Origin: a virus
Length of the DNA: 21,011 nucleotides
Virus record (IMG/VR): IMGVR_UViG_3300020172_004213
Coordinates: 1 to 21,011 of that record
Direction: 5' to 3' (one strand)
The position numbers were made by a program, and so were the translations under genes. Every line of letters begins with the position of its first letter. Within the stretch, counting starts at the first letter, position 1. Positions 2,870-21,011 of the stretch are shown one piece after another. The notes below the pieces were generated by a model. The model was not told the DNA's origin. It searched no databases and worked only from the letters and a program-made list of their open reading frames with translations.

Positions 2870-4798
2870 ATGCCTTTTACTAAGTTTACAAATCTAGATT
2901 TTGATCAGATAAAAGCATCCATCAAAGATTATCTCCGTGCGAATTCTAATTTCACGGACTTTGACTTTGAAGGATCGAACTTTTCGATTCTGATTGATAC
3001 GCTTGCCTATAACACATATATCACAGCATTTAACTCAAATATGATTGTGAACGAATCCTTTTTGGATTCTGCAACACTCAGAGAGAATGTAGTTTCTCTT
3101 GCAAGAAATATTGGTTACGTTCCACGCTCCAGAACCGCCTCTAAGGCACTTGTTTCTTTTGACGCGCAAATAGATGCAGCAGTCAATAGTGCCACCCTCA
3201 CGCTCCAGGCAGGTCTTGTATGCGTAGGAAATGTTGATAATACGTCTTACATCTTTTCAATACCAGAAAACTATACTGCAAATATTACCAACTCAGTCGC
3301 ATCATTTACAGAACTAGAAATTTATCAAGGAACATTTCTTAAAAAACAGTTTGTAGTTGATGGATCATTGGACCAGAGATTTATTATTGATAATCCATAT
3401 GTGGATACATCAACCATTAAAGTTTATGTGAAAGGTCCCACAGATAGTGGAAATGGCATTGAATATACTCTTGCCAATAATATTTTTGAAGTTACTGGAA
3501 TCTCCAATATCTATCTTATTCAAGAAGTTCAGGATGAAAAGTATGAACTTCTGTTTGGTGATGGAGTTATTGGTAGAAAGTTAGAGAATAATTCTGTCAT
3601 TACTGTATCATATATTGTTACTGACGGCACAGAGGGAAATGGTGCCTCAAGATTTTCTTTCTCGGGAACATTTAGAGGTTCTTCAGATCAACCAATTACT
3701 TCTAACAATGCAATTTCAATCACAACGGTTCAATCCTCTCAAAACGGTGGAAACATTGAATCAATTGATTCTATCAAATATTTTGCACCACGAATTTATT
3801 CAAGCCAATATAGAGCGGTAACTGCAAGAGATTATGAGGCAATCATTAAATCAATCTATCCAGATACAGAATCAGTTTCAGTAATTGGTGGCGAAGATTT
3901 AGATCCACCAGAATATGGAACAGTATCAATTAGTATTAAACCAAAGAATGGTACATTTGTTTCCGACTTTAATAAGTCCCAAATCTTATTCAAGTTAAAA
4001 CAATATTCACTTGCTGGTATTAATCAAAAGATTATGGATCTCAAAATTCTTTATGTTGAGATCGATTCTTCAATTTACTATAATTATTCTCAGGTTTCAT
4101 CTGTAAATGATTTGAGAACAAAAGTTATTCAATCTTTGACTACTTATTCAAATTCTATCGATTTAAATAAATTTGGTGGCAGATTCAAATATAGTAAAAT
4201 TCAACAAATCATCGATAATACTGACACATCAATTACATCAAATATTACTAAGATTAAAATTAGAAGAGATTTAAAGGCTCTTGTAAATCAAGCAGTCCAA
4301 TATGAACTATGTTTTGGTAACAGACTACACATTAATCCTTTAGGTGCAAATATTAAATCAACTGGATTTACAATCTCTGAACAGTCTGGAACAATCTATA
4401 TTACTGATACTCCGAATAAGAATGTTGATGGAACTCTTGACGGAAGCAATAAAGGAGTTTTGGCATTATTTAAGTATGATCAAAGTGGGAATGTTCAAAC
4501 AATTTCCAAATCAGCTGGGTCCGTAGATTATTCAAAAGGTGAAATTATTCTTGGACTTCCTGAAGATATTATTATAACATCAACAGAAAAGGGTGATAAT
4601 ATAATTGAAGTACAGGCATATCCAGAATCCAATGATATTATTGGATTAAAAGATTTATACATCTATTTTGATGTTACAAAAAGTTCAATAAATATGGTTA
4701 AAGATGTTATTGCATCTGGAGATAATATATCTGGTGTGACATTCTCACAAGATTATTATACATCAAGTTATTCCAATGGAGATTTAACGAGGTCATAA
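2870..4798 (+). CDS. 6: Baseplate wedge subunit gp6
   Basis: The protein has 642 residues, against about 660 for T4 gp6. In T4 two gp6 copies per wedge join neighbouring wedges into the ring that keeps the baseplate together. The conserved N-terminal block is clear: DFDFEGSNFSILIDTLAYNT, then NESFLDSATLRENVVSLA and a GYVPRSRTASKA turn (about residues 30-97). The middle has the gp6/baseplate J-like beta domain with YELLFGDGVIGRKLENNS and the RAVTARDYEAIIKSIYPD segment just after it. It starts one base after the gp25 stop; AGAGG at 2853-2857 is a distant Shine-Dalgarno, so coupling is likely. Its own stop is followed after one base by the giant gene. Frame and identity are firm. Confidence 0.95.
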   Translation: MPFTKFTNLDFDQIKASIKDYLRANSNFTDFDFEGSNFSILIDTLAYNTYITAFNSNMIVNESFLDSATLRENVVSLARNIGYVPRSRTASKALVSFDAQIDAAVNSATLTLQAGLVCVGNVDNTSYIFSIPENYTANITNSVASFTELEIYQGTFLKKQFVVDGSLDQRFIIDNPYVDTSTIKVYVKGPTDSGNGIEYTLANNIFEVTGISNIYLIQEVQDEKYELLFGDGVIGRKLENNSVITVSYIVTDGTEGNGASRFSFSGTFRGSSDQPITSNNAISITTVQSSQNGGNIESIDSIKYFAPRIYSSQYRAVTARDYEAIIKSIYPDTESVSVIGGEDLDPPEYGTVSISIKPKNGTFVSDFNKSQILFKLKQYSLAGINQKIMDLKILYVEIDSSIYYNYSQVSSVNDLRTKVIQSLTTYSNSIDLNKFGGRFKYSKIQQIIDNTDTSITSNITKIKIRRDLKALVNQAVQYELCFGNRLHINPLGANIKSTGFTISEQSGTIYITDTPNKNVDGTLDGSNKGVLALFKYDQSGNVQTISKSAGSVDYSKGEIILGLPEDIIITSTEKGDNIIEVQAYPESNDIIGLKDLYIYFDVTKSSINMVKDVIASGDNISGVTFSQDYYTSSYSNGDLTRS

Positions 4799-4799
4799 G

Positions 4800-7700
4800 A
4801 TGATAGAAACTGGTTTTGATGCTAGGGTAAAAGTTCAGCAAATTGTAGAAAATCAATTACCAGAGTTTATATTAGACGAAAGCCCAAAATCCTCAGAATT
4901 TTTAAAGCAATACTACATCTCTCAGGAGTATCAGGGAGGTCCGGTTGATATTGCCGAAAATTTAGATCAGTATCTAAAACTTGACAATCTCATTCCAGAA
5001 GTTGTTGTAGGAATTACTTCCCTATCAACAGATCTATCATCGACTTCTGGGATAGTTACTGTAACAAGCACTAAGGGATACCCAAATCAATATGGTCTTT
5101 TAAAGATTGATGGTGAAATCATCACCTATACTGGAATTACTACTAATACTTTCACTGGATGTATTAGAGGATTTAGTGGAATTACTAGCTATCATGCGCC
5201 AAATGATCAAGAAGAATTAGTATTCAGCCAAACTAATACATCTACACATATTCAAGGATCTAAGGTAGAGAATTTAAGTTCATTATTCCTCAAAGAATTT
5301 TATAAGAAAATTAAATATACTTTTACTCCTGGACTTGAGGATAAGGATTTTATTCCAGAATTAAAGGTTGGAAACTTTATAAAGCAAGCAAGAGATTTTT
5401 ATAAATCAAAAGGTACTGATCAGTCATTTAGAATTCTTTTCAATATTCTTTATGGGGTAAATCCTAAAGTTATTGATCTAGAACAATTTCTAATCAAACC
5501 ATCGTCTTCTGTTTTTGTAAGGAGACAACTTGTTGTTGCAGAAAGAATTTCTGGAGATCCAAATAAACTTGTTGGGCAGACCATTAGAAAATCGACTGAT
5601 TATGGAACTAATGCTTCAGTTTCAGAAGTTGAAATTTTAACTAGAAAAAATAAAGTTTATTATAAAATCAGCCTTTATGTTGGATTTGATGAAAATACCC
5701 AGATCCAAGGTGATTTCAATATTTCACCAAAAACAAAAGTTGTAGAAAATGTATCTCCAGGAGCATCAGTTATTACTGTAGATTCTACGATTGGATTTAC
5801 TACTTCTGGAACAGTTGTATCTGGAAATAATATTATTTCATATTCTGACAAGACTATTAATCAGTTTTTAGGATGCTCTAATGTTGAATATGCAATTACA
5901 ACTGCTGATGACATTAGATCTGATGAAATTTATTATGGATTTGAGGATAATGATCTAACCAAAAAAGTTGAAATAAGAATTACTGGAGTTATTAGTAAAT
6001 TTACAAATTTAAATGATTTTGGACTATCAATTGAAGGTGAAGAAATAAAAGTTTCTCATCTAGGTAAAATTATTAAAAATCCAGAATTAAATAAAACTTA
6101 CACGGAAACTGTTGCCAATTCATTCATTTATAACACTAGTTCCAGGTATTATGTAAATTATTCTTCTGGTTCATTTAATACAAATAGTATCATTGATAAA
6201 TCCAGTTTAATGTCTGGAGATTCAATTGAGGTTCTAATTAGAGGATCTCAAACTGTAGTCTCCTCACCAGTAACTATTGCAAGTATTGTTAGTATCTCTG
6301 GTAATACTATTAATGTTACAAATCTTTTGGATTTGAATGGAGAGACATTTGATCCTACAGATCCAAATAAAGTATATTTTGGCAGAGATCTTGATATTAG
6401 AAGGAAAGTTAAAAAAGCAACAAGTTCTGAAACATCTTTGGATTATGGGAATAATACGTTACTTTCAGATGTTCAAAATGTATATGATGATAATGATGGA
6501 AATCTATATGTAGCGTCAAATTCCTTACCATCATACAATATAACACAAAATATATTTGAAATTGATATTCCTACGGCAAGTAGTGCATATCTACAAAACA
6601 AAGATACTAGTACTCAAAAATACTCCACAATTTCATTTGATTTTTCCAGTGGTTCCAGTAACGGTTCTAGAGGATTTACTCAAGTACCATTCTTGACTGG
6701 AGATAAAGTTTTCTATTCACCACAAAATATTCCCATTACTGGATTAGAACAAGGATTTTATTATGTTGAAGTTGTTAGTCAGACTAATATTAGGTTATAT
6801 GCCTCACAATCATTTATTGTAAGTGGTGATTATATTCCTTTAGACATTCCATTAAATGCAAATGGATCTCACGCATTTACTTTAGCAGATCAAAGAACTA
6901 AAAATATTTCTGCACAGAAAATATTAAGAAAAATTCCAGTTACTAAATTAAATCCAACAGACTCTGGTGATGTTACAACTTCAGGCCCAATTGGAATACT
7001 GATTAATGGTGTTGAAATACAAAACTATAAGTCTTCAGATAAAATTTATTATGGACCTATCGAATCCGTCAATATCTTAAATGGTGGTACTGGTTATGAT
7101 GTCGTTAATCCACCATTACTAACTGTTGAGTCTGGGATAGGAGTTACTGCTTTAGTTAATCCAGTTATAACTGGATCTATTGAAAAAATCTTTATTGATC
7201 CCCAAGATTTTGATTTGGATGTTGTTGTTTCTGTTGCTGTCTCTGGGGGAAATGGTATTGGTGGAGTTTTTGAACCAATCTTAGAAAAGAGACGTAGATC
7301 AATTTATTTTGATGCAAGAGATACTGACAATTCTGGGGGAATAGATTTAATAAATGAAACGATTACATTTAAAACTAATCATAATCTTAGAGATAGGGAT
7401 GGTATAATTTATAGTCCAAATGGGAATTCCCAAATAGGAATTGCTACCTTTGGCGGATCAAATGCAAGTTCTGGTTCTTTTTTAAGAGACGGAACCATTT
7501 ACTATACAAAAGTTGTTAATTCCAAAACAATCCAATTATATAACTCATTATCAGATTTTAATTCGGGTATTAATACAGTTGGTTTCACCACTATTAATAC
7601 ATATGGGCTTCAAAAATTCGAAACTTTTGCCTTAAGAAATACTTTATCACAAATTAAAGTAGTTGATGGTGGAAGTGAATTTTCTAACAGAAAAGTAATT

Positions 7701-10700
7701 GTAAATCCCACTGGAATATCTACATTTGATCATACTATTAATTTTAGTAATCACGGATTTAATAATGGAGATTTTGTAACATACACCCATGATAATATTG
7801 CAATCAGCGGTCTTTCTTCATCAGTTCAATATAAAGTATTGAAAGTTGATGGCAATAGTTTTAGATTAGTAAATGCAGGAATTGGTGGTACATACCTTTC
7901 AGATTATCAAAGAGGAAAATATGTAAAATTCTCCTCTTCAGGATCCGGTTATCAGTATTTTTCATACCCACAAATTAGTGCAAATATTAATTATTCTATT
8001 GGAATTAATGGTAGTTCTGTTGGCATAGTTACAGCTACTCCTATTATTAGAGGAAAAATTGTTGATGCATATATTTACGAAGCAGGAACGAATTATGGAT
8101 CTACAATTTTAAATTTTCATAAGAAACCCAAAATCTCTATTAATAATGGGACTGATGCGGAATTGGTTCCCGTAATTATAGGGAATACAATTGAATCGGT
8201 TCAAATAAAATATGGTGGTACGAATTATTATTCTATTCCAGATCTTAATGTAATTGGTGATGGTAGTGGAGCAATATTAAGACCTTCTATTTCAAATGGA
8301 AAAATAATTAAAGTCTTTGTCCAAAATGGGGGACAAAATTATACATCAGAAAATACATTTATCAATGTTGTTCCTGCAGGTAAAAATGCAATTATTGAGG
8401 CATCAGTTAGATCTCTTACTTTAAATAATAATTATAGATTTAATAATTCTGAGATTATCTCTGGTGAAAATTCTTTGGAATATTCTGTTAGTGGATATAT
8501 TTCTCAAGTAAGAAGTGCCGTTAATGATACCAGTCAAAGTACAAATGCACACTCACCTTTAATTGGGTGGGCTTATGATGGAAATCCAATCTATGGTGCA
8601 TATGGATATCCGGATCCAACTATTGTATCGGATTGCATAGTATTGAGACCTGGATATAGTTTAAATTCAAATAATATTTTTAATAGACCTTCTTTGACTA
8701 ATTTCCCAGCAGGTGCTCTTGTTGAAGATTATGTCTTCAACAACTCTGGTGATTTGGATTATTCAAATGGAAGATTTTGCAAAACTCCGGAATTTCCATT
8801 AGGTACATATGCATACTTTGCTGGAATAACAACCGGATCCGCTCAAACTTTACCATCTTTCCCATATTTTGTTGGAGATAGATTCAAAAATAATTTTATC
8901 AAAGAAAATAGAACTCTAAATCAATCATTTAATTTGAATAATTCTTCATTAATTAGAAATACTCTTCCTTATAAAATTAATGATGAATATGCAGATAATG
9001 ATTTTATTATAGAATCAAATGAAATAATAAATCAAAAGGTAATGGTTGATTCCATTTATAAAGGAAAAATTGAAGGATTCGATATCCTCAATTCTGGAGA
9101 TGGATATTCCATTGGCGATACTTTAGTATTTGATAATACTGGAACATATGGAAGTAATGTAGATGCAAAAGTATTCAGTTTAACTGGTAAAGACATTGTT
9201 AATATCAATACATCTATAGAAACCTATGATAATACCATCTTTACCAGAAAAGATGGAAATTCTATTAATGCAACTATTTTACCATATCACACATTTTCTG
9301 ATGGTGATAACGTTACAGTATCTGGATTTTCAACATATTTAAGTGCATTAAATGGATCTTATCCAATAGGAGTTACTTCTTATAGTACAACTTTGACAAA
9401 TGCAATGGCATCAAGCCCATCTGTAGGGTTGGTAACAGATATCTATGTTGCAAATGTCCCTCCAAATATCTCTATTGGTAGCAGCATTAGTGTTGGCATA
9501 GGATCAGAAATTCTGTCCATTATTTACATTTTTGATACAACTAATGTTATAAGAGTTAAGAGATCTTCTGTTGGAGTTGCCTATAGTGCATCCACAATTA
9601 TCAATTATCTTTCAGATACTATTACTATTAATAAGCAAACCGAATATTTTGATTCAACTTTAAACAATAAAGTATTTTTTAATCCAACAGAAACAGTCGG
9701 TTTGGGAACTCTTGTTGGTATTGGAACAACGGTTCGTTATAGTCTTAATGGACAAAACTATATTGGTATAGGATCGACGGGACTTTCACCACTTTTAAGA
9801 ACTATTCCAACACAAAGCATTTATATTAAAAATCACCCATTCAAAGATAATCAACAAGTACTATTTAAAAAACCAGTTGGAATAGCAGCAACTGCCCTCA
9901 TTGTTTCGGGAAGTGCTGGAGTATCATCTACATTTATATTACCATCTCCAGGAGATGCTCAGATTGTTTATGTAACAAATAAATCAAGAGATACAATTGG
10001 AATCAAAACCCAATTAACTTCTAGTGAAATATTCTTCATTCAAAATGGGACGAATAACTATGAATATTCTATTGAATCGGTTTTCCCACAATTAACCGGT
10101 AGAATTGATAAAATAAAATCTACCGTCTCAGTTTCGACTGCTCATGGGCTTCTGCAAAATGATTCAATAAAACTTTCCATTCAACCAAATCTTTCGGTCG
10201 GAATAGGCACTTCAAGTTCCGTTTATGTTTCATATTATGCTGCCAAGAAGCAACTTATTTTTAATCCAATTGGATTTACTTCTGTTGGAATTAATACACT
10301 CAATAATACTATCAATTTACCAAACCATAATTTAAATACTGGAGATAAGGTATTTTATAAAGCAGACGATCTTGCAGCATCAGGATTAACAACTGGTGGA
10401 TATTTTGTTTATAGAGTTAATGATGACAATATTCAATTATCTGAGACATATAATGATAGCGTATCAAATCCACCAACCGTTGTTAGTACTGGAATTGGAA
10501 CTGGTGGGCGTTCTCAGCAGATTGGACTCATAAATCCCGAAATTAAATCAATTAGAGGAAACGATTTAGTATTTAATTTATCGGATACTACTCTATCTGG
10601 ATATAATTTTAAATTATATACTGACAACCAATTTGAAAATGAATTTGTTTCAATTGCAGGAACTACGGCATTTAGTGTAATTGGAATTGGAAGTCTTGGA

Positions 10701-13700
10701 ACTGCTTCAGCAACTAAAACAATTCAGTATAATTCGGAATTACCGAGCACATTATTCTACACATTAGAAAAATCTGGTTACCTCAGCACATCAGATAAAG
10801 ATGTCAATAATTATTCTCAGATAACATTTATTGACAGTGGTTATAATGGCAATTACTCAATTACTGGTGTAGGGACGACAACGTTTAGTTTTTCCCTACA
10901 ATCTATTCCAGAAACAAAAGTTTATAATGCAAGTGATTGCTCATTATTGAAATATACCACTAAATCAAAAAATGCAACTGGTGGTGTTGATAGAATAAGA
11001 ATTATTTCTGGTGGATATAATTATAAAAAATTACCGAAAATAAGTTATGTTGATAGTCAATTTGGTTCAAGTGCATATATTGTCCCAACTTCATCAACCA
11101 TTGGAAAAATAAACGATGTTAATATTATCAATCAAGGATTTGAATATGCTTCTGATAAAACCCTAAGACCATCCGCAAGCATACCTAGTTATCTCACAAT
11201 TGATTCATCAAATACACTTACAAAAATTGATGTAAATTATGGTGGAAATTACTATTCATTTACACCATCCGTAGTAGCTATAAATCCAAATACTGGAAAA
11301 GAAGTAGAAGATTATGTTTTAAATGCATCTCTCAGGGGATCTAGTATTAATAAAGTTGATATTGTAAAGAGTCCAAAAGGACTTCCAGCAACTCCATTAC
11401 AATTATTCACAGTAAATAATTCGAATGGAATATCAGTGGATACTATTGTAACTTCTCAGGCAGGAATTGCCACATGCACATTAGTTACTCCAGTATTAGG
11501 ATTTAGTACTAATGTCTTTGGTGTTGGTGATAAAGTTTTTGTTGAAGGCATACAACAATCGGGAGCAACTGGAACAGGATATAATTCATCAGATTATGGG
11601 TATAAGTTCTTTACTATTACAAATTATCAGAATACAATTCCTGCAACGGTAGAATTTACAGTATCCCAATATAGCAACAATCCCGGTATAGCAAAAACAA
11701 TTCAAGATTCTTTTGGAAATATTGTTAAGTATCAGGATTATCCACAATTTAGAATTTCACAGGAACCATCAACATTTATACTTGGTGAAAAATTAGCATC
11801 TGCTACTGGATCAGTATTTACTGAAAGAGATCTGACAGTTACTGAGTACAATATAAATTCAATAAAGGCAACTGGATCATATTCACTTACACCTGGAGAG
11901 CGCATTAAGGGAATTATATCAGGATCTGTCGCCTCGATCAGTAGCATTATTAGTCGAGAGGGAAGATTTGAAACTGATTATTCAACAAAAAATAATTATG
12001 ATTGGATTGACGAAGTGGGGAGATTGAATGAGGATTTTCAAGTAATAAATGATAGTGACTACTACCAAAATCTTTCATATACTATAAAGAGCCCTATTCA
12101 ATATGAAGAACTAAAGACATCCGTAAATTCCTTATTACATACTACTGGTTTGAAGAATTTTGCAGATACTCAAGTACAATCAGTAGCAAGAAGTGGAATT
12201 GGTTCTACCGATGGAACCGTTATTATTTACGACATTCAAAGTGAAAATAGGGTAGATACAATTAATTCATTTGACCTTGCCATTGATATAAACATATCCA
12301 ATAATAAATCCAAATTTTTAAAACTTAAAAATAAAAAATTATCTAGTTATATTGAATGTAGAACAAATAGAGTTCTTCAGGTAGATGATGTATCGTCACA
12401 ATTTACGAATAATGATGCAGCAGCTGTTGGTTATGTAGATTTGATTACTTACAATCTTCCAGATAATTTTGGAACTTATCTAGTTCAAATTATCAATACA
12501 CCGAAGAGTAGATATCAATTTACCGATTTGGTAGTTCTTGTAGATAATGATTACAATGTTTTCACTCTTCAAAGACAATCTTTAAATAATTCTACAATTA
12601 ATGTTGCTGATATTGATGGTTATATTGACGATTCCCTAGGAACAATTAGCTTAAGATTTACTCCTTTGGATCGTTTTAATGAAGATTATGACATTAAAAT
12701 GATTAAGTCAAGTTTTCCTGGAGCAAGTATTGGAATAGGAAGTACAAGTGTTGGATTTATTAAGTTAACAAATGCAGGATCTTATGTTTCGTCTGGAGTT
12801 ACTACATCAATCGTATCAGTAGCAACAACAACTAATTATGGATCTTTCTATGGAACATTTCAAATAATTGATAATGTCACCAATTATATGGATTTTGTTG
12901 AATTGTATATGACCTATGATGGTCAAGATACATATATGAGCCAGTATTATTATGATACAAGTTCACTATCAAATAATTATTCGAGTCAATTTATAGGAAC
13001 TTTTGGAGCATCGATTTCATCTGGAGTTTTATCGATAAATTATACCAATGATACCTCAAATTTAGTTACTGTAAATTCAAAAATAGTTGGATTTGGAACA
13101 ACCTCTATTGGAATTGGAACTTATAGATTTTTAGTTCCTGGTCAAGGTGCTGGATTTGAGAGATCAGCAAAATATGAATCTCTGTATTCAAGAGTTTCAA
13201 CTGCTTCAACGATTGTTTCATATTCTATTACAGATGTAGGTTGCTTTAAGGCAAAAGTTAATTTGAGTGTTGGGTCAACCAGCGAGTTGCATCAGATCAT
13301 GTTTATGTCTGACGGTGTTGATGGTTACATAACTCAATATCCAATTTTGTCCAATAAAGATACTACAGGAATTGGAACTTTTGGTACAGTTTATTCACCA
13401 CTTTACAACCAACTTTTATTCTATCCAAGTTCTAGTTTGGGTGGAGCAACTGTTGAAGTTAAAATTTACAATGAAGTATTTTATATTGAAGCGGATTATA
13501 GTAATGTACCACCAAATCTAATATACGGTACTGGTGAGGATACATTTACAATTAATCCATATAATGGATTGAACGCAAGAAGAATTAATAAATTGGACTT
13601 TGAGATGAATTATCAAGGAATTCCAATCTATAAGAAAGTATTTGACCCATCAAATGGAGCTCAATTAAATCCATCTACTGGTGTTATTACAATTCCAAAT

Positions 13701-16700
13701 CATTTCTTCAATACTGCTGAAGAACTGATTTATAATCCTGCAACAACTTTCCTAGGGATTGCTGTTACTGCTGTTGGGATAGGTTCTACACTAAGTTATA
13801 CTGGTGTTGTAACTTCGTTCTTACCATCAAGAGTATATCCAATTAAACTTGACAATAACAATTTCCAATTATCTACAAGAAAAGAATACGCCGAAGTTGG
13901 TATTTGCGTTACATTTACATCTTTTGGATCTGGAAATGCTCACGAATTAGAGATGACCAAGAAATTGGAAAAATCTTTGCTTACAATTGATAGTGTTGTT
14001 CAAGCACCTCTTGCATATTCATTACTAGATTATTCCTTAAAATACAATTCCGATCTAGTAGGAATTAGTAGAACTGGTATTATTGGAGTGAGTACTAATT
14101 TAATCACTGGAATTAATACTTCTGGTATAGTAGTTGGCAAATTAATAGGTTCTGTTGGAATAGTATCTTCTGATGCTCAGGTAACATCAATTGGGATTGG
14201 TAGTTTGACAATTAATAAAACTTCACTCCAAGGAATAAGTACAACAACAACATTTAATTTTGATGGTGGAGTTGGTGCTGGTAATACTAATTTTTCAATT
14301 AGTGGAATTTCTTCAATTAAACCAACAGATCTTCTCAAAATTGATGATGAATATGTAAGGGTTGTTTCTGTTGGACTTGGTACAACTAGTGGAGCACCTA
14401 TAAGTGGTCTAGGGACTTATTACATTCTCAATATTCAAAGAGGATATGCAGGAACTATTGCGACTGCACACTTTAATGATACTGCAATTCCTCTCTATAG
14501 GGGATCCTATAATATTGTTGGAAACAAAGTATGGTTCACAGAGTCTCCGAGAGGAAATGCAGTAACACAGAGAGATATTAGTAATCTGGAACAAGCAAAA
14601 TCCTCATTTACTGGAAGAGTTTATCTTAGAAAGGATTACACTACAAATACATTGTATGATAATATTTCAGAGAAATTTACTGGAATTGGGCAAACTTATA
14701 TTCTGACATTGAATGGATTGAACACTACCGGAATTGGATCTACTGGTGGTAATGGAATTCTTTTCATTAACAGTATTTTCCAGACTCCATCCACACAAAA
14801 TAATACTGGAAATAATTTTACTGTTGTTGATAATGCAGTTCTTGGAATTACTAGTGCTGTGTTTAGTGGAATTACTTCAACAAATGGTCAAATTATTAAA
14901 TCAGATGCTGATGTAAATCAAAATCAACTTCCAAGAGGTGGTATTATTGTTTCTTTAGGAACCAGTGAAGGTTCTGGATATGCTCCCTTAGTGGGCGTTG
15001 GAAGCACTGGAATTGAGATTAAACTTAGTGGTGGATCAATTTCTTCTATTGGATTTACAACTTCCTTCGTTGTTGGCGTAGCGGTCACTGGACTGATTGG
15101 AATCACAACTAATAGGATTACAGGTATTGTCACTAATTCAATTTCTGTTGGGCAGCAACTTCAGGCAATTGGTGTGGTTACTACTGGAACTTTTGTAACT
15201 TCTATTGGATTTGGAACTATTTTCATTAACAGTAACTCTACTAATGCAGTTGGAATAGCAACAACATTTTCATTTAGATCAGAACCAAATTTTGGATCTG
15301 GATATTTTGGAACGGTATCTATTGGAATATCTGACCCAACTGGATCTGGAGCAGTAGTTTCTGGAAGAGTTGGTTCTGGTGGTTCTATTTCTGGATTTAT
15401 AATTCAGAATGGTGGATCTGGATATACAAATCCATATGCTCAAATTGCACCACCAAATTATGAAAATCTTCCAATCATTGGTGTTTCTAGATTGAGCATA
15501 GGATCAACTACCGATACTGGAGTAGGATTGCAGGTGAATGTGACTGTTGGACCAAGTGTATCAACTGGAGTTGCCTCAACACTCTTTGGTGTAGAATCAT
15601 TTAAGATTACTAGACCTGGTTATGGTTTCCAAATTGGAGATGTATTTAAACCAGTAGGTCTCGTAACTGCAAAAGGTCTATCAGAACCAGCTAAAGAATT
15701 TAAATTAACTGTTTTAAGTACATTTAGTGATTCCTTTGCTGCTTGGCAATTTGGAGAAATGGATTATATTGATTCTATCAAAGCAATGCAGGATGGTAGT
15801 AGGACAAGATTCCCACTTTATTACAATTCACAATTATTGAGTTTTGAAATTAATGCTAATGATCAGGATTCTGCCAATATTGATCTTGGACCAATTCTAC
15901 TCATCTTTGTTAATGGAATTGTTCAAGCTCATGGAGATACTTATGAATTTGATGGCGGATCATCATTTGTATTCAAATTTCCACCATTGCCAGAGGATAA
16001 TATTGCAATTTTCTTCTACAGAGGAACAAGAAATCAAGATAGTATTTTAGTATCAGTTAATGAAAGCCTGAAGAGGGGAGATACTGTTCAATTATTTAAA
16101 AATCCAACAGTTTCTGGAGTCACGACTTCCCAAAATTCAAGATCAATTTCATATATTTCTGCTTCTGACAAAGTTGAGACTAACATTTATGGTGATCAGG
16201 GAATTGATGTTGCAAACTATAAACCATTTAGTTGGACAAAGCAAAAAGTTGATTCTAAGATCAATGGTGAGATTATCAGAAAAACTAGAGATTCAATTGA
16301 AGGATCAGTTTATCCATCTGCAAGAATTATTAAGGATTTAACATCTTTTGATACTGAATTGTTTGTTGATGACGCAAACTTCTTCAAATACGAACAAAAT
16401 CAAACAGCAGCATATTCGGGCTCCTTATCACCAATCACAATTGGTAGTTTTGGTGGATTGATCGTTAGTGGAAAGGATGATCCAGTATCTGCAGCATTAA
16501 CTGCAACAGTTTCTGCTGCTGGAACAATTTCAGCATTAACAATTACTAATGCTGGATCTGGATATACTGGAACAACAATACCAGTTAAAATTGCCCGTCC
16601 AAGAGTTATTGGTGTTGGTATTGGGTCAACCGCCATTGCAACGGTAAGTATTTCAAATGGAAGCATTTCTTCTCCAACAATTACTAATGCTGGGTTTGGA

Positions 16701-17297
16701 TATACTATAAGTAATCCACCTCAAGTCATCGTTGCGTATCCTAGCCCAATTGTTGAAAAAATTAGTGGGGCATCATTAGTACAAGGATTCTCTGGAATTA
16801 TTACCGGAATTGGAACTACTACAGGAATAAGTGGAAATCCTCTTGCTCTCAGGTTCTATTTAAATGTAAATTCTCCAAATTCATTCCCATCTGGATTATC
16901 TACTGGATATCCAATTTATATTTCCGATACAGTTGTTGGTATGGGAGTAACTTCAATTGATAATAGTAACACTGCGGTTGTTGGAGTAGGAACTACCTAC
17001 GTCAATAATATTTACTATGTTCATTCACTTACTTATGTTTCTGCTGGATCAACCAATGCTGAGATAGTCTGCAATATTGAATCAAACACTTCTGTGGTTG
17101 GTTTACTGACTAGTGGAAATAAATTTGCTGGAAGATTCTCTTGGGGAAGAATTTCCGGATTTAGTAGATCATCAAATCCAATTTCAATTGGCGTAAGTGG
17201 TTATACTATAACTTCTGGATTGACCACATTCGCATCAATTCAAAGACGTGGATATGGATTAAGAGATATTGGTCCACTTAAAAAGGATCTCGGTTAA
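4800..17297 (+). CDS. 7: Giant gp7-like baseplate wedge protein
   Basis: The 4165-residue product is about four times T4 gp7 (1032). GAGG at 4789-4792 is a good Shine-Dalgarno. Residues about 159-310 resemble the T4 gp7 C-terminal region: ARDFYKSKGTDQSFRILF, then LVGQTIRKST. Residues about 2395-2460 resemble a segment that lies soon after in T4: INDSDYYQNLSYTIKS, then LLHTTGLKNFAD. Between and after these lie repeated beta-rich modules: IDGEIITYTG...GC.RG units; eight H-x-x-x-x-GD-type units of about 60 residues; GG-x-GY motifs; a YHYH domain (about 1250-1345, GWAYDGNPIYGAYGY); a three-copy tandem module (2543-2897); and a non-repetitive C-terminal domain (about 3640-3865). There are no membrane segments. 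In T4, gp7 is one copy per wedge and braces gp6, gp8 and gp10; gene order 25-6-7-8 fits. The modules may form an external lattice or bind host polymers. The gp7 link rests on remembered T4 sequence. Confidence 0.8.
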   Translation: MIETGFDARVKVQQIVENQLPEFILDESPKSSEFLKQYYISQEYQGGPVDIAENLDQYLKLDNLIPEVVVGITSLSTDLSSTSGIVTVTSTKGYPNQYGLLKIDGEIITYTGITTNTFTGCIRGFSGITSYHAPNDQEELVFSQTNTSTHIQGSKVENLSSLFLKEFYKKIKYTFTPGLEDKDFIPELKVGNFIKQARDFYKSKGTDQSFRILFNILYGVNPKVIDLEQFLIKPSSSVFVRRQLVVAERISGDPNKLVGQTIRKSTDYGTNASVSEVEILTRKNKVYYKISLYVGFDENTQIQGDFNISPKTKVVENVSPGASVITVDSTIGFTTSGTVVSGNNIISYSDKTINQFLGCSNVEYAITTADDIRSDEIYYGFEDNDLTKKVEIRITGVISKFTNLNDFGLSIEGEEIKVSHLGKIIKNPELNKTYTETVANSFIYNTSSRYYVNYSSGSFNTNSIIDKSSLMSGDSIEVLIRGSQTVVSSPVTIASIVSISGNTINVTNLLDLNGETFDPTDPNKVYFGRDLDIRRKVKKATSSETSLDYGNNTLLSDVQNVYDDNDGNLYVASNSLPSYNITQNIFEIDIPTASSAYLQNKDTSTQKYSTISFDFSSGSSNGSRGFTQVPFLTGDKVFYSPQNIPITGLEQGFYYVEVVSQTNIRLYASQSFIVSGDYIPLDIPLNANGSHAFTLADQRTKNISAQKILRKIPVTKLNPTDSGDVTTSGPIGILINGVEIQNYKSSDKIYYGPIESVNILNGGTGYDVVNPPLLTVESGIGVTALVNPVITGSIEKIFIDPQDFDLDVVVSVAVSGGNGIGGVFEPILEKRRRSIYFDARDTDNSGGIDLINETITFKTNHNLRDRDGIIYSPNGNSQIGIATFGGSNASSGSFLRDGTIYYTKVVNSKTIQLYNSLSDFNSGINTVGFTTINTYGLQKFETFALRNTLSQIKVVDGGSEFSNRKVIVNPTGISTFDHTINFSNHGFNNGDFVTYTHDNIAISGLSSSVQYKVLKVDGNSFRLVNAGIGGTYLSDYQRGKYVKFSSSGSGYQYFSYPQISANINYSIGINGSSVGIVTATPIIRGKIVDAYIYEAGTNYGSTILNFHKKPKISINNGTDAELVPVIIGNTIESVQIKYGGTNYYSIPDLNVIGDGSGAILRPSISNGKIIKVFVQNGGQNYTSENTFINVVPAGKNAIIEASVRSLTLNNNYRFNNSEIISGENSLEYSVSGYISQVRSAVNDTSQSTNAHSPLIGWAYDGNPIYGAYGYPDPTIVSDCIVLRPGYSLNSNNIFNRPSLTNFPAGALVEDYVFNNSGDLDYSNGRFCKTPEFPLGTYAYFAGITTGSAQTLPSFPYFVGDRFKNNFIKENRTLNQSFNLNNSSLIRNTLPYKINDEYADNDFIIESNEIINQKVMVDSIYKGKIEGFDILNSGDGYSIGDTLVFDNTGTYGSNVDAKVFSLTGKDIVNINTSIETYDNTIFTRKDGNSINATILPYHTFSDGDNVTVSGFSTYLSALNGSYPIGVTSYSTTLTNAMASSPSVGLVTDIYVANVPPNISIGSSISVGIGSEILSIIYIFDTTNVIRVKRSSVGVAYSASTIINYLSDTITINKQTEYFDSTLNNKVFFNPTETVGLGTLVGIGTTVRYSLNGQNYIGIGSTGLSPLLRTIPTQSIYIKNHPFKDNQQVLFKKPVGIAATALIVSGSAGVSSTFILPSPGDAQIVYVTNKSRDTIGIKTQLTSSEIFFIQNGTNNYEYSIESVFPQLTGRIDKIKSTVSVSTAHGLLQNDSIKLSIQPNLSVGIGTSSSVYVSYYAAKKQLIFNPIGFTSVGINTLNNTINLPNHNLNTGDKVFYKADDLAASGLTTGGYFVYRVNDDNIQLSETYNDSVSNPPTVVSTGIGTGGRSQQIGLINPEIKSIRGNDLVFNLSDTTLSGYNFKLYTDNQFENEFVSIAGTTAFSVIGIGSLGTASATKTIQYNSELPSTLFYTLEKSGYLSTSDKDVNNYSQITFIDSGYNGNYSITGVGTTTFSFSLQSIPETKVYNASDCSLLKYTTKSKNATGGVDRIRIISGGYNYKKLPKISYVDSQFGSSAYIVPTSSTIGKINDVNIINQGFEYASDKTLRPSASIPSYLTIDSSNTLTKIDVNYGGNYYSFTPSVVAINPNTGKEVEDYVLNASLRGSSINKVDIVKSPKGLPATPLQLFTVNNSNGISVDTIVTSQAGIATCTLVTPVLGFSTNVFGVGDKVFVEGIQQSGATGTGYNSSDYGYKFFTITNYQNTIPATVEFTVSQYSNNPGIAKTIQDSFGNIVKYQDYPQFRISQEPSTFILGEKLASATGSVFTERDLTVTEYNINSIKATGSYSLTPGERIKGIISGSVASISSIISREGRFETDYSTKNNYDWIDEVGRLNEDFQVINDSDYYQNLSYTIKSPIQYEELKTSVNSLLHTTGLKNFADTQVQSVARSGIGSTDGTVIIYDIQSENRVDTINSFDLAIDINISNNKSKFLKLKNKKLSSYIECRTNRVLQVDDVSSQFTNNDAAAVGYVDLITYNLPDNFGTYLVQIINTPKSRYQFTDLVVLVDNDYNVFTLQRQSLNNSTINVADIDGYIDDSLGTISLRFTPLDRFNEDYDIKMIKSSFPGASIGIGSTSVGFIKLTNAGSYVSSGVTTSIVSVATTTNYGSFYGTFQIIDNVTNYMDFVELYMTYDGQDTYMSQYYYDTSSLSNNYSSQFIGTFGASISSGVLSINYTNDTSNLVTVNSKIVGFGTTSIGIGTYRFLVPGQGAGFERSAKYESLYSRVSTASTIVSYSITDVGCFKAKVNLSVGSTSELHQIMFMSDGVDGYITQYPILSNKDTTGIGTFGTVYSPLYNQLLFYPSSSLGGATVEVKIYNEVFYIEADYSNVPPNLIYGTGEDTFTINPYNGLNARRINKLDFEMNYQGIPIYKKVFDPSNGAQLNPSTGVITIPNHFFNTAEELIYNPATTFLGIAVTAVGIGSTLSYTGVVTSFLPSRVYPIKLDNNNFQLSTRKEYAEVGICVTFTSFGSGNAHELEMTKKLEKSLLTIDSVVQAPLAYSLLDYSLKYNSDLVGISRTGIIGVSTNLITGINTSGIVVGKLIGSVGIVSSDAQVTSIGIGSLTINKTSLQGISTTTTFNFDGGVGAGNTNFSISGISSIKPTDLLKIDDEYVRVVSVGLGTTSGAPISGLGTYYILNIQRGYAGTIATAHFNDTAIPLYRGSYNIVGNKVWFTESPRGNAVTQRDISNLEQAKSSFTGRVYLRKDYTTNTLYDNISEKFTGIGQTYILTLNGLNTTGIGSTGGNGILFINSIFQTPSTQNNTGNNFTVVDNAVLGITSAVFSGITSTNGQIIKSDADVNQNQLPRGGIIVSLGTSEGSGYAPLVGVGSTGIEIKLSGGSISSIGFTTSFVVGVAVTGLIGITTNRITGIVTNSISVGQQLQAIGVVTTGTFVTSIGFGTIFINSNSTNAVGIATTFSFRSEPNFGSGYFGTVSIGISDPTGSGAVVSGRVGSGGSISGFIIQNGGSGYTNPYAQIAPPNYENLPIIGVSRLSIGSTTDTGVGLQVNVTVGPSVSTGVASTLFGVESFKITRPGYGFQIGDVFKPVGLVTAKGLSEPAKEFKLTVLSTFSDSFAAWQFGEMDYIDSIKAMQDGSRTRFPLYYNSQLLSFEINANDQDSANIDLGPILLIFVNGIVQAHGDTYEFDGGSSFVFKFPPLPEDNIAIFFYRGTRNQDSILVSVNESLKRGDTVQLFKNPTVSGVTTSQNSRSISYISASDKVETNIYGDQGIDVANYKPFSWTKQKVDSKINGEIIRKTRDSIEGSVYPSARIIKDLTSFDTELFVDDANFFKYEQNQTAAYSGSLSPITIGSFGGLIVSGKDDPVSAALTATVSAAGTISALTITNAGSGYTGTTIPVKIARPRVIGVGIGSTAIATVSISNGSISSPTITNAGFGYTISNPPQVIVAYPSPIVEKISGASLVQGFSGIITGIGTTTGISGNPLALRFYLNVNSPNSFPSGLSTGYPIYISDTVVGMGVTSIDNSNTAVVGVGTTYVNNIYYVHSLTYVSAGSTNAEIVCNIESNTSVVGLLTSGNKFAGRFSWGRISGFSRSSNPISIGVSGYTITSGLTTFASIQRRGYGLRDIGPLKKDLG
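12428..13490 (+). repeat. Three-copy tandem module in the gp7-like gene
   Basis: Three related segments of about 125-130 residues follow one another (near 12428-12717, 12828-13100 and 13222-13490). Each has a hydrophobic strand ending in a D-(G/N)-x-D turn (VVLVDNDYNVF, YMTYDGQDTYM, FMSDGVDGYI). This is followed by an SLN/SLSN/LSN segment, then a G-(A/Y/T) strand and a LxFTP-, INYTN- or LFYP-like strand. The D turns are 373 and 393 bases apart. Copies have diverged strongly at DNA level, so the duplication is old. A beta-sandwich fold is likely but inferred. Confidence 0.6.
14050..15290 (+). repeat. Diverged internal duplication in the gp7-like gene
   Basis: The segment coded at about 14071-14260 (RTGIIGVSTNLITGINT, then VTSIGIGSLTIN and ISTTTTFNF) is repeated at about 15088-15276 (VTGLIGITTNRITGIVT, then VTSIGFGTIFIN and GIATTFSF). 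The order and spacing are the same, and the copies are offset by roughly 1020 bases. This is a dispersed duplication of a roughly 65-residue Ile/Gly/Thr-rich unit. Confidence 0.65.
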
Positions 17298-17298
17298 T

Positions 17299-17306
17299 TA
17301 TAAATA
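17299..17306 (+). promoter_or_regulatory. Late promoter for gp8
   Basis: A second perfect TATAAATA box begins two bases after the giant gene's stop and ends 19 bases before the gp8 ATG, almost the same layout as the promoter before gp25. The predicted start is near 17312. The A-rich leader has no Shine-Dalgarno. Confidence 0.8.
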
Positions 17307-17325
17307 GTGAAAAAACTACAATAAT

Positions 17326-18903
17326 ATGTCAGCAATTGTAACCGATCAATTTAGAATTCTCAATGCAGGTAACTTTGTAGATTCTATTGATAATACTAAT
17401 AATTCTTATTATGTATTTCTGGGATTACCAAATCCCACAGCAGTTGGATTTGGTAGAACTACTGATTGGGATACAAATACTCCTGATCCAACAGATAATA
17501 TAAATTATCTCAATCATTCTCATGATACTATCGTATTTGGTAAAAAACTAACTAGTGCAAACGTAAGAAGAGTTATAAGAAGAATTGATTGGTCTAGGGG
17601 ATCAAAATATGAAATGTATCGCCATGACTATAGTATTACAAACCAATCACCATTAACACAATCTAATAGACTTTATGATGCAAATTATTATGTTCTGAAT
17701 TCTGAATATAAACTCTATATTTGTATTGATAATGGTTCTTCAGGGATTACTACAGGTGGAAATGCTTCTCAGGATGAACCAACTTTTACAGATTTAGAAC
17801 CATCTGCTGCAGGTTCTAGTGGCGATGGATATCTTTGGAAGTATCTATACACAGTATCTCCAAGTGATATTATTAAATTTGATTCTACTGAATATATTTC
17901 AGTTCCAAATAGTTGGCAGTCTTCAACTGATGTGCAAGTAACTGCAGTAAGAACAAATGGAGATTCTTCAATTAATCAAAACCAAATTAAGAAAGTTTAT
18001 GTAGATAATCCAGGACTAGGATATGCTGGTGGAGCAAATCAATCATTCAATATTATTGGTGATGGGTCTGGAGCATCTATTATTTTAGATGTAAACACTA
18101 TTGGTCAAATTTCTAATGCCAGGATTTCTTCTGGAGGTAATGGATATACCTATGGTATGGTAGATCTTGGTAGTATTAGTGCAACAGCAACAGAAGCAGC
18201 CAAATTAATCCCAATTATTCCACCATCAAGGGGTCATGGTTATGATATTTACACTGAATTGGGAACTGATAGAGTCCTTGTATATGCAAGATTTGATGAT
18301 TCTACAAAGGATTACCCAATTGATACAAAATTTGCCCAAATTGGTATATTAAAAAATCCAACCTCATTTGGTTCAACAGCAACATTTACTGATAACCAGT
18401 TTTCTGGATTATATTCAATCAAATTAAATCAATCATCAATTACGGGAACAGTATCTGTTGGTGATAAAATCACTCAAACAGTTACTGGCGGTACAGGTGG
18501 AGTAATTGGAACTGCAATTGGTTATGTTGCATCATATGATGCTGAAACAAATGTTGTTAAGTATTTTAGGGACAGATCACTTTATTTCAATTCAACCAAA
18601 TTGGATGAAACTGACTATAAGACTGTTTCGTCACAAGCAAGGGTTTTATCATTCGAATCATCTTCATATCCAATTGTGAAAAATGTTGGTGGATTCTCAG
18701 CATCCGTAGATACTAGTTTTAGTGGAGTTACTACATCCCTTTCTACGGGTAAAATAATAAGTTTAGGAACACAATTTACAAATGGTCTTTCAAATCCCGA
18801 GATAAATAAATCATCGGGAGATATCATATACATTGATAACAGACCCTTGGTATCAAGAAACTCCAGACAAAAAGAAGACGTTAAAATTATCCTGGAATTT
18901 TAA
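17326..18903 (+). CDS. 8: Baseplate wedge subunit gp8
   Basis: The protein has 525 residues; T4 gp8 has 334. Both ends match T4 gp8 as I remember it. The start has AIVTDQFRILNAGNFVDSI and the VRRVIRRIDW segment (about 80-89), then GDGYLWKYLY (166-175) and TEYISVPNSW. The end is SGDIIYIDNRPLVSRN followed by a Lys/Glu-Ile-rich strand, parallel to the T4 C-terminus. The extra length lies between about residues 215 and 440 and contains two GG-x-GY repeats (NPGLGYA, SGGNGYT) of the type found in the gp7-like protein. In T4, a gp8 dimer per wedge binds gp7 and links to gp10. A dedicated late promoter would let it be made in excess of the giant gene upstream. There is no clear Shine-Dalgarno. Confidence 0.93.
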   Translation: MSAIVTDQFRILNAGNFVDSIDNTNNSYYVFLGLPNPTAVGFGRTTDWDTNTPDPTDNINYLNHSHDTIVFGKKLTSANVRRVIRRIDWSRGSKYEMYRHDYSITNQSPLTQSNRLYDANYYVLNSEYKLYICIDNGSSGITTGGNASQDEPTFTDLEPSAAGSSGDGYLWKYLYTVSPSDIIKFDSTEYISVPNSWQSSTDVQVTAVRTNGDSSINQNQIKKVYVDNPGLGYAGGANQSFNIIGDGSGASIILDVNTIGQISNARISSGGNGYTYGMVDLGSISATATEAAKLIPIIPPSRGHGYDIYTELGTDRVLVYARFDDSTKDYPIDTKFAQIGILKNPTSFGSTATFTDNQFSGLYSIKLNQSSITGTVSVGDKITQTVTGGTGGVIGTAIGYVASYDAETNVVKYFRDRSLYFNSTKLDETDYKTVSSQARVLSFESSSYPIVKNVGGFSASVDTSFSGVTTSLSTGKIISLGTQFTNGLSNPEINKSSGDIIYIDNRPLVSRNSRQKEDVKIILEF

Positions 18904-18906
18904 AAA

Positions 18907-21011
18907 ATGGCTCAAAAAACCAATTTAAATGTTAGTCCTTATTATGATGATTATGATTCTAATAAGGATTTTTATAAAATCCTATTCAATCCAGGTAGAC
19001 CAGTTCAGGCTAGAGAATTAACTACCTTACAGTCAATTTTACAAAATCAAATTGAAAAATTTGGGAGTAACGTCTTTAAAGATGGGTCTGTAGTTATTCC
19101 AGGAAATATTGCATTCGACTCACAATTTTATGCTGTTAAATTAAATCCAACCAATTATGGTGTGGATATTTCGCAGTACATTGAAAAATTAATTGGTAAA
19201 AAAATTACTGGGCAAAATTCTGGGGTTAGTGCTCGTGTCCAATATGTATCATTGCCAGATGGGGCAAATATTGAATACATTACAATTTATGTAAAATATC
19301 TAGATTCTGATTCTAATTTTAAATTTAGCCCCTTTATGGATGGGGATATACTTGTTTGTGAAGATAATATAACCTATGGTATCACAACAATAAATTCTGG
19401 GACTCCATTTGCATCTTCAATTGCATCCGATGCAACAGCAATTGGATCTGCAGCATCCATTAATGATGGAATTTATTTCATTAGAGGATTTTTTGCAAGA
19501 GTTTCTAAGCAAACAATCATTCTTGATGAATATACAAACACACCATCGTATAGAGTTGGATTAAGAATTGATGAAGAAATAGTTAGTGCAAAAGACGATT
19601 CTTCATTATATGATAATGCAAAAGGATTTTCCAACTATGCGGCTCCAGGATCAGATAGATTTAAAATCAATTTAACTCTCATCAAAAAGGAACTTGATGA
19701 TCTGAATGATACAGATTTTGTTGAGTTGATGAAGATTCAAAATGGGCAAATTAAAAAGTTTCAAGTAAAGAGTAGTTATAATATAATTAGAGATTATCTT
19801 GCACAAAGAACTTATGATGAATCTGGAGATTATGCAGTTACACCATTTACTGTTTCGGTAAATAACTCCTTAAATAATAGACTTGGAAATGATGGTTTAT
19901 TTTTTGATGATGAAAAAACAGATAGTGGAAATGTCCCATCAGATGATTTGATGTGTGTTAAAATTTCTCCCGGTAAGGCATATGTTAGGGGATATGATAT
20001 TGATAAGGTAGGAACAACAATTATTGATGTCAATAAACCGAGAGATATTCAAACAGTAAGTCAAATTAATGTTCCATTTAAAGTAGGAAGTCTTTTAAGA
20101 CTTAATAATGTATATGGAGCAGTAAAAAGAAGAGGTACAGTAGAACTTTTCAACCAGAGAAAAAGTTCTACTAGTGCATCTTCTGGAACTGGTGTTAAAA
20201 TCGGAGATGCCAGAATTTTAGAACTTAATGTAACTGATGTAAATTATTCTTCTTTTGCAACAAACTGGGATTTGTATCTTTATGATATTCAAACTTACAC
20301 TCAACTGACTTTAAACCAGGCAGTTGGGATAGAACTTCCAGCAACTTCCCTTATTAGAGGTAAGAGCAGTGGAGCTACAGGATATGCCGTAAGCGCAGGT
20401 AGCAACTCAACTTTAGTTACACTAAGACAAGTATCTGGATCATTTTTGCCGGGAGAACAAATTTTAATTAATGGTATCGATACATATTCAAGATCTATTG
20501 TATCTGTAAAAGATTTTGGTAATCAGGATATTAAATCCGTCCTTCAGAGTACAGCAGTATCTGGTTTACCTGTAGCATTTAGTGCGGATTGCTTTTTAGA
20601 CACCTTTAATGGTGCTGGATTTAATGGATTGGATAGAATAACAATTTCTTTTGATGCCTCTGGAAATGCAACTGCAGCATGTCCTGGAAAGGTATTTACT
20701 GGCATTAAAACTGATACTGTTATTAGATACCAAAGACCTGGATTTACTACAGAAACCTATAATAGAGTTTCGGCAGTATCTCCAACAGGATTAACAATGA
20801 ATCTAGTTGGAGTAACAACTGTTACTGGAGTTTGTGATGGTGGGGTTGGAGTTTCAACTGGCATTGGATTTGCTGTTGGAGTATCACAAATTAGGAATCA
20901 GGATAAATTAGGTCTCTATATTCCACTACCAGATAAAAATGTATCTTCTGTAAATCTAAGCGGATCTAATATTTCTATTGTAGATCAGATTACTGGACAA
21001 ACAACAAGTGC
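18907..21011 (+). CDS. DUF4815-like virion structural protein (3' partial)
   Basis: This frame opens at ATG 18907, three bases after the gp8 stop, and stays open for 701 codons to the right edge, so the C-terminus is missing. The N-terminus (SPYYDDYDSNKDFYKILFNP, then GRPVQARELTTLQSIL) is the pattern I associate with DUF4815-type phage structural proteins: a Y/F-D-x-x-K segment, F-x-PGRPVQARELT, then a long helix. It includes FKDGSVVIPG and a later KISPGKAYVRGYDID strand-turn. Further on it carries Gly/Ser/Thr-rich beta segments such as IRGKSSGATGYAVSAG. Its place after gp8 suggests an outer baseplate or fibre-attachment protein, perhaps in the position of T4 gp9/gp10, but I see no direct similarity to those. 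It likely shares the gp8 late promoter and is coupled to it. Confidence 0.85.
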   Translation, partial: MAQKTNLNVSPYYDDYDSNKDFYKILFNPGRPVQARELTTLQSILQNQIEKFGSNVFKDGSVVIPGNIAFDSQFYAVKLNPTNYGVDISQYIEKLIGKKITGQNSGVSARVQYVSLPDGANIEYITIYVKYLDSDSNFKFSPFMDGDILVCEDNITYGITTINSGTPFASSIASDATAIGSAASINDGIYFIRGFFARVSKQTIILDEYTNTPSYRVGLRIDEEIVSAKDDSSLYDNAKGFSNYAAPGSDRFKINLTLIKKELDDLNDTDFVELMKIQNGQIKKFQVKSSYNIIRDYLAQRTYDESGDYAVTPFTVSVNNSLNNRLGNDGLFFDDEKTDSGNVPSDDLMCVKISPGKAYVRGYDIDKVGTTIIDVNKPRDIQTVSQINVPFKVGSLLRLNNVYGAVKRRGTVELFNQRKSSTSASSGTGVKIGDARILELNVTDVNYSSFATNWDLYLYDIQTYTQLTLNQAVGIELPATSLIRGKSSGATGYAVSAGSNSTLVTLRQVSGSFLPGEQILINGIDTYSRSIVSVKDFGNQDIKSVLQSTAVSGLPVAFSADCFLDTFNGAGFNGLDRITISFDASGNATAACPGKVFTGIKTDTVIRYQRPGFTTETYNRVSAVSPTGLTMNLVGVTTVTGVCDGGVGVSTGIGFAVGVSQIRNQDKLGLYIPLPDKNVSSVNLSGSNISIVDQITGQTTS

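Follow-up and report, generated by a model that had tools for sequence, protein, structure and literature searches.

The giant ORF of the window, the window being the whole 21 kb (21,011 nt) IMG/VR virus fragment IMGVR_UViG_3300020172_004213, very probably encodes a T4-like cyanophage's orthologue of gp7, in which the conserved core (about residues 646-900 of T4 gp7) is present in two pieces that would still form one domain, with the long insert between them at its periphery. The family of the giant ORF as such is already known, and the gp7 label was in the databases beforehand, though inconsistently: the ORF matches PHROG 2885 ("baseplate wedge subunit") across most of its length, and its close relatives carry the GenBank label "baseplate wedge initiator". 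The T4-like cyanophages count among the most abundant viruses of the sea; for the question of how a baseplate can function in them with gp10-gp12 lacking, the location and the split of the gp7 core provide a precise map for structural work. The genes surrounding the giant ORF are as follows:

2467-2868, + strand: gp25-like baseplate wedge protein (PF04965, E 3.9e-13)
2870-4798, + strand: gp6-like baseplate wedge protein (PF21379, E 8.7e-18; PHROG 219)
4800-17297, + strand: giant gp7 ORF, 4,165 aa, uninterrupted
17326-18903, + strand: gp8-like baseplate wedge protein (PF09215, E 8.5e-12, match in split pieces)
18907-21009, + strand: DUF4815/VrlC-type structural protein, start only, running to the window end (PF16075, E 9.5e-38; PHROG 358)

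According to these Pfam and PHROG assignments, the order gp25-gp6-giant ORF-gp8 agrees with the order gp6-gp7-gp8 of T4. The gp8-like protein is enlarged as well (525 aa vs 334 aa in T4 gp8): its Pfam match is broken up, with about 266 residues between pieces that are about 60 apart in the profile, and GGxGY modules, of the kind described below for gp7, are found at residues 215-277, so that growth by insertion may involve several wedge proteins. Residues 81-114 of the VrlC-type protein weakly match the gp7 core HMM at its barrel end (E 4e-4), and the two proteins perhaps share a barrel motif. The window also comprises a 252-aa ORF (642-1400) which matches PHROG 1574 (E 7.5e-123; function not assigned in PHROG); its match to a glycosyltransferase family is weak (E 6e-7).

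The giant protein is organized in six regions:

4800-5015, + strand: residues 1-72, N-terminal helical part of the gp7 core (profile A1, described below, aligns to T4 gp7 from residue 646; alignment with Moby, XG4, Cr30, phiM12 and T4)
5016-5249, + strand: residues about 73-150, site A insertion, a small beta module missing in the aligned T4, Moby, XG4, Cr30 and phiM12 proteins
5250-5744, + strand: residues about 151-315, gp7 core segment 1, FYKSKG helices and LVGQTI barrel strands (PDB profile search, T4-free HMM)
5745-11984, + strand: residues about 316-2395, site B insertion, about 2,080 residues of beta-domains (N-core to C-core spacing)
12003-12212, + strand: residues 2402-2471, gp7 core segment 2, YYQNLSYTIKS...LLHTTG (C-core HMM, clade identity peak)
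12222-17294, + strand: residues 2475-4165, C-terminal tail, about 1,690 residues of similar beta-modules (ORF end, module matches)

Profile A1, built from window residues 1-321 and 37 relatives, was searched against 177,635 PDB sequences: two T4-type gp7s ranked at the top (E 2.8e-10 and 2.5e-9), the alignment covering window residues 1-320 and residues 646-831 of T4-type gp7, and the next match was a MarR protein (E 7e-4). A second profile, A2, made from short relatives, likewise found T4-type gp7, with a weak second stretch that corresponds to the C-core and lies in the correct order. Reciprocally, an N-core HMM built from eight non-T4 gp7s matched T4 gp7 at 724-759 (E 2.4e-9), and an HMM of T4 gp7 600-1032, run on all the window frames, detected the giant ORF (E 5.9e-5; runner-up 0.079). 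The FYKSKG and LVGQTI motifs at residues 200-262 correspond to FYSTKG (734) and LVGQTI (781) of T4 gp7. Profiles were required for these results: phmmer with the whole giant protein against the PDB gave no match, and single-sequence tblastn against enterobacterial gp7 was weak (E 0.2-0.9); among the non-cyanophage tblastn matches listed, nearly all were gp7 genes, save unannotated or "hypothetical" records. The NCBIfam scan left the window protein unmatched; the TIGR02242 phage tail protein domain was seen on the phiM12 gp7 core, under the cut-off (E 9.9e-6), with no match in the window protein. In P-SSM4, S-SM1 and S-TIM4 site A is larger by about 500 aa, and the N-core starts at residues 666-668. 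The earlier note, made from the letters of this DNA, had recognized gp7 in the ORF, a reading that the profile searches, the reciprocal HMMs, the gene order and the graded relatives uphold; its first segment, set at residues 159-310, is indeed homologous to gp7, but it was made to start too late, since the core runs from residue 1 and residues 73-150 are a second insertion.

The motif of segment 2 is common to the window protein, Moby, XG4, Cr30, phiM12, P-SSM2 and P-SSM4, and the C-core HMM of this YY..SYxIxS...HPxG region gives E 3.8e-30 on the window protein, which is itself a seed member. Built without T4, the C-core HMM matches T4 gp7 at 865-890 (E 0.0043), the best reversed-sequence control being 0.18-0.22. 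The segment 2 of the window clade alone, aligned to T4 gp7 by hhalign, is placed correctly at 866-887 but does not reach significance (P 0.063), and its profile did not find T4 gp7 in the PDB, where weak unrelated matches only were obtained. Through intermediates, hhalign connects the window clade with the Cr30-type proteins (P 9e-15) and these with T4 (P 0.0021). At the level of sequence, therefore, the link of segment 2 to T4 gp7 is one that depends on intermediates. The T4 C-terminal HMM matches P-SSM2 in two separated pieces, at 192-272 and, weakly, at 2491-2548 (i-E 0.17). Identity within the window clade is highest at residues 1-360, with a second peak at 2401-2460; the first value is partly biased, as the relatives were picked by that region, and the second peak is free of such bias.

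The distance between the N-core and C-core HMM matches was taken as the spacing of the two pieces. It measures 2,123 aa in the window protein versus 72-105 aa in full-length T4-type gp7s, in agreement with the earlier proposal that two segments less than 100 residues apart in T4 gp7 lie far apart here. Among 44 contigs of the window clade the spacing is 2,064-2,157 (mean 2,098, SD 22). It is 52 in Ochrobactrum phage OC, 138 in Pseudoalteromonas XG4, 201 in Stenotrophomonas Moby, 284-920 in the Cr30-like group (n = 84 contigs), about 1,530-1,600 in S-H34 and S-MbCM7, 2,097 in S-SRM01, 2,181 in P-SSM2 and 2,753 in P-SSM4, the cyanophages overall spanning about 1,500-2,750. The site B insertion is real, constant in length inside the clade and graded over the T4 superfamily; it is not peculiar to this phage, being a property of the clade and part of a trend across the whole T4 superfamily. 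Identity of the insert within the clade is about 30-60% throughout, and the region is not hypervariable.

A profile of T4 gp7 1-600 found no counterpart in the six window frames (best E 0.78), which bears out the absence of the T4 N-terminal two thirds supposed in the earlier note, and it had no match among short gp7s either (Moby, Cr30, OC, phiM12); the N-terminus is accordingly a T4-type addition, which the wider family does not share. The tail, previously estimated at some 1700 residues, extends for about 1,690 aa after segment 2, compared with about 140 aa past the core in T4 gp7.

The following modules were located in the insert and in the tail:

6675-6884, + strand: residues 626-695, tailspike/FCCH-type beta-barrel module (HMM derived from the insert profile A3, iterated)
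residues 853-942, 970-1026, 1674-1740, 1828-1903 and 2963-3053: other barrel modules (same iterated HMM)
7044-7124, + strand: residues 749-775, GGxGY module (GGxGY HMM)
residues 1035-1060, 1082-1105, 1163-1190, 1418-1445 and 2059-2084: further GGxGY modules of the insert (GGxGY HMM)
at residues 3376, 3525, 3904 and 3950: GGxGY modules of the tail (GGxGY HMM)
8514-8828, + strand: residues 1239-1343, YHYH-like domain (PF14240, E 9e-21, profile positions 81-182 of 193)

Rather than forming a regular lattice, the insert consists of divergent beta-domains strung one after another, which fall into at least three kinds. The size of about 2,000 residues foreseen for it proved close to the approximately 2,080 found, and its description as lattice-like repeats did not hold: self-BLAST of the giant protein detected no repeats at E 1e-3, so that the reading as regular repeats was dropped, and divergent modules were recovered by HMM instead. 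The GGxGY HMM finds 10 copies in insert and tail, and none in T4 gp7. The barrel modules, in several copies, carry the pattern NHxFxxGDxVxY...; in predicted structures, residues 963-1056 resemble an endosialidase beta-barrel (Z 6.7) and residues 830-944 the FCCH domain of E1 (Z 8.8), a likeness that, in these models, would be one between single domains of a common kind, and no catalytic tailspike domain was found alongside the barrel modules. Most beta-modules of the model of residues 720-1445 are predicted with confidence (block pLDDT mostly 80-95), with the exception of the YHYH region, whose pLDDT is under 50 and which was left uninterpreted. Foldseek returned nothing at E 0.001 or better for this model; its low-probability matches, such as the HEV capsid and RNA polymerase, were regarded as chance, and gp18 domain I was not among the structure matches listed for these residues. 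Neither the search of A3 against the PDB, which gave no match, nor the Pfam scans of individual modules, which gave nothing useful, added to this picture.

Structural information on the core came from the predicted model of L094, a relative of 479 aa, whose top three Foldseek matches are all gp7. VIA-align aligned L094 76-441 with T4 gp7 716-894; it also aligned the L094 barrel, to which residues on either side of the insert contribute, with residues 763-851 of a Klebsiella-phage gp7 (Z 8.8, 89 residues, rmsd 3.2). The helical core and the C-core of the model have low confidence (pLDDT under 50), and for this reason the model supports, and does not prove, the folding of both pieces together. 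The insert module of L094 (263-337) is similar, in its six-stranded barrel fold, to domain I of T4 gp18 (99-186; Z 9.2, rmsd 2.3 A, 75 residues, 25% identity); this gp18-like fold was seen in L094 and not in a segment of the window protein, and by sequence only the similarity of the GGxGY module to gp18 is marginal (E 0.05-0.18). Domain I of T4 gp18 juts out of the sheath, and both the baseplate and the retracted fibres are bound by it (PMC3004832).

In T4, gp7, one copy to each wedge, makes up the wedge core with the gp6 dimer. Pieces 1-315 and 2402-2471 would most likely pack into one wedge-core domain next to gp6, and the insertion of about 2,080 residues would have grown from one loop, between the last barrel strands of the first piece and the second piece. 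From there the insert may loop outward, with GGxGY modules resembling gp18 domain I, tailspike-type barrels and the YHYH-like domain, to form a large peripheral mass on each wedge. T4 gp7 is a monomer present in six copies per tail (PMC3004832), and at this copy number the protein would add more than 3,000 residues per wedge beyond T4. On this reading gp7 shows clearly how a virion machine can change through growth within a domain.

As for the role of the insert, g10, g11 and g12 are reported as missing from cyanomyoviruses (PMC2984593), which makes a replacement of that apparatus by the insert attractive. The peripheral baseplate and short-tail-fibre apparatus of cyanomyophages (the T4 gp7 N-terminus, gp10, gp11 and gp12) might thus have been replaced by covalent growth of gp7, the core anchoring an arm of more than 2,000 residues which leaves the barrel loop, holds sheath, fibres and host surface, and takes over the docking or host contact of the T4 parts; we put this forward tentatively. 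It is quite conceivable, instead, that insert and tail are mainly architectural, connecting adjacent wedges, gp8 and the VrlC-type protein so that the baseplate becomes larger or double-layered, and having no direct host contact. The tightly kept length of the insert (2,098 +/- 22) and the degree of identity among relatives, unlike that of a fast-changing receptor-binding part, argue for such a role, as does the docking of baseplate and fibres by gp18 domain I in T4 (PMC3004832); tailspike-type barrels and YHYH-like modules, however, are usual in proteins contacting the host (PMC7824862, PMC7029224). The replacement of the gp10-gp12 apparatus and a purely architectural role are about equally likely.

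Some very long structural proteins undergo processing, and the giant chain could be cleaved after assembly, so that in the mature virion the small core of gp7 would be separate from the peripheral proteins. This seems unlikely, as the core pieces flank the insert on both sides, and T4-GC969 of S-SM1, which has both gp7 cores according to the core HMMs, was detected in purified virions and recorded as one virion protein (PMC3037559). We give still less credence to the insert providing an enzyme, namely a zinc hydrolase of the YHYH type directed at the cell wall. YHYH domains are predicted to be zinc hydrolases (PMC7824862), and the PF14240 match, present in 40 of 40 clade members, scores 75 bits vs a curated cut-off of 25; however, it is limited to part of the profile, and the literal YHYH motif is missing in all gp7s examined, the one regularly conserved His being that of HSPxIGW, which counts against the hydrolase role predicted for the family. 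A chance resemblance of gp7 to an unrelated giant structural protein, which the weak single-sequence identity to T4 gp7 might suggest, is very improbable, being contradicted by the PDB profile match, the reciprocal HMMs, the ordered motifs, the gene order and the graded intermediates. An assembly chimera or a frameshift fusion, conceivable for a 21-kb fragment, is the least credible account of the ORF, because 44 further contigs, as well as the isolates S-SRM01 and P-SSM2, show the same collinear arrangement.

In the literature searched, with subscription papers outside the search, no description of a split gp7 core was found. According to one genomic comparison, cyano- and pelagimyophages lack gp7 and have VrlC in its place (PMC7029224); this is contradicted by the gp7 cores of cyanophages, which have a VrlC-type gene as well, separate from gp7, and also by those of Pelagibacter phage Mosig. 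In the latter, an 874-aa "hypothetical protein" encoded after gp6 (5545-8169) matches both the N-core (E 3e-23) and the C-core (E 3e-17), and is thus a gp7 despite the reported absence. The gp7 and VrlC labels appear to be swapped in S-MbCM7 (KF156338), where the gene between gp6 and gp8 (11983-22584) is annotated as VrlC and holds both gp7 cores, and the gene after gp8 (24558 onward) is annotated as gp7. In S-SKS1 (HQ633071), the gp7 region (6341-18736) is divided among four ORFs in differing frames (710, 1601, 1113 and 739 aa), in part unannotated, which reflects either sequencing errors or true breakage. A split core with an insertion ranging from about 50 to more than 2,700 residues helps to explain such inconsistent gp7/VrlC annotation.

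Compared with known systems, the window protein shares with T4 gp7 (PDB 5IV5, 5HX2) the core, whose residues 646-900 are homologous to both pieces, and the gene position between gp6 and gp8; about 600 N-terminal residues of T4 gp7 have no counterpart here, and about 2,100 residues stand in place of the short T4-type gap. The short gp7s of Ochrobactrum phage OC, Pseudoalteromonas XG4, Stenotrophomonas Moby, Caulobacter Cr30 and Sinorhizobium phiM12 share the core and likewise lack the T4-type N-terminus, and several of them have GGxGY modules; their site B insertion is of 52 to 755 aa vs about 2,100 in the window protein. Domain I of T4 gp18 (98-188), whose fold is like that of the L094 GGxGY module, is in gp18 too an insertion into another domain, but sits in a different carrier protein from the gp7 modules. 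The endosialidase beta-barrel of phages K1F and phi92 and the FCCH of E1 have a barrel fold like that of the insert modules, a single-domain resemblance. VrlC/DUF4815, a large virion protein of the same cluster, is encoded by a separate gene past gp8, so that both a VrlC-type protein and gp7 occur here. The full-length relatives, finally, are the members of PHROG 2885, including the "baseplate wedge initiator" of S-SRM01 and ACG-2014f and the P-SSM2 homologue; they have the same two-piece core with no essential difference, and the window protein is a member of this group.
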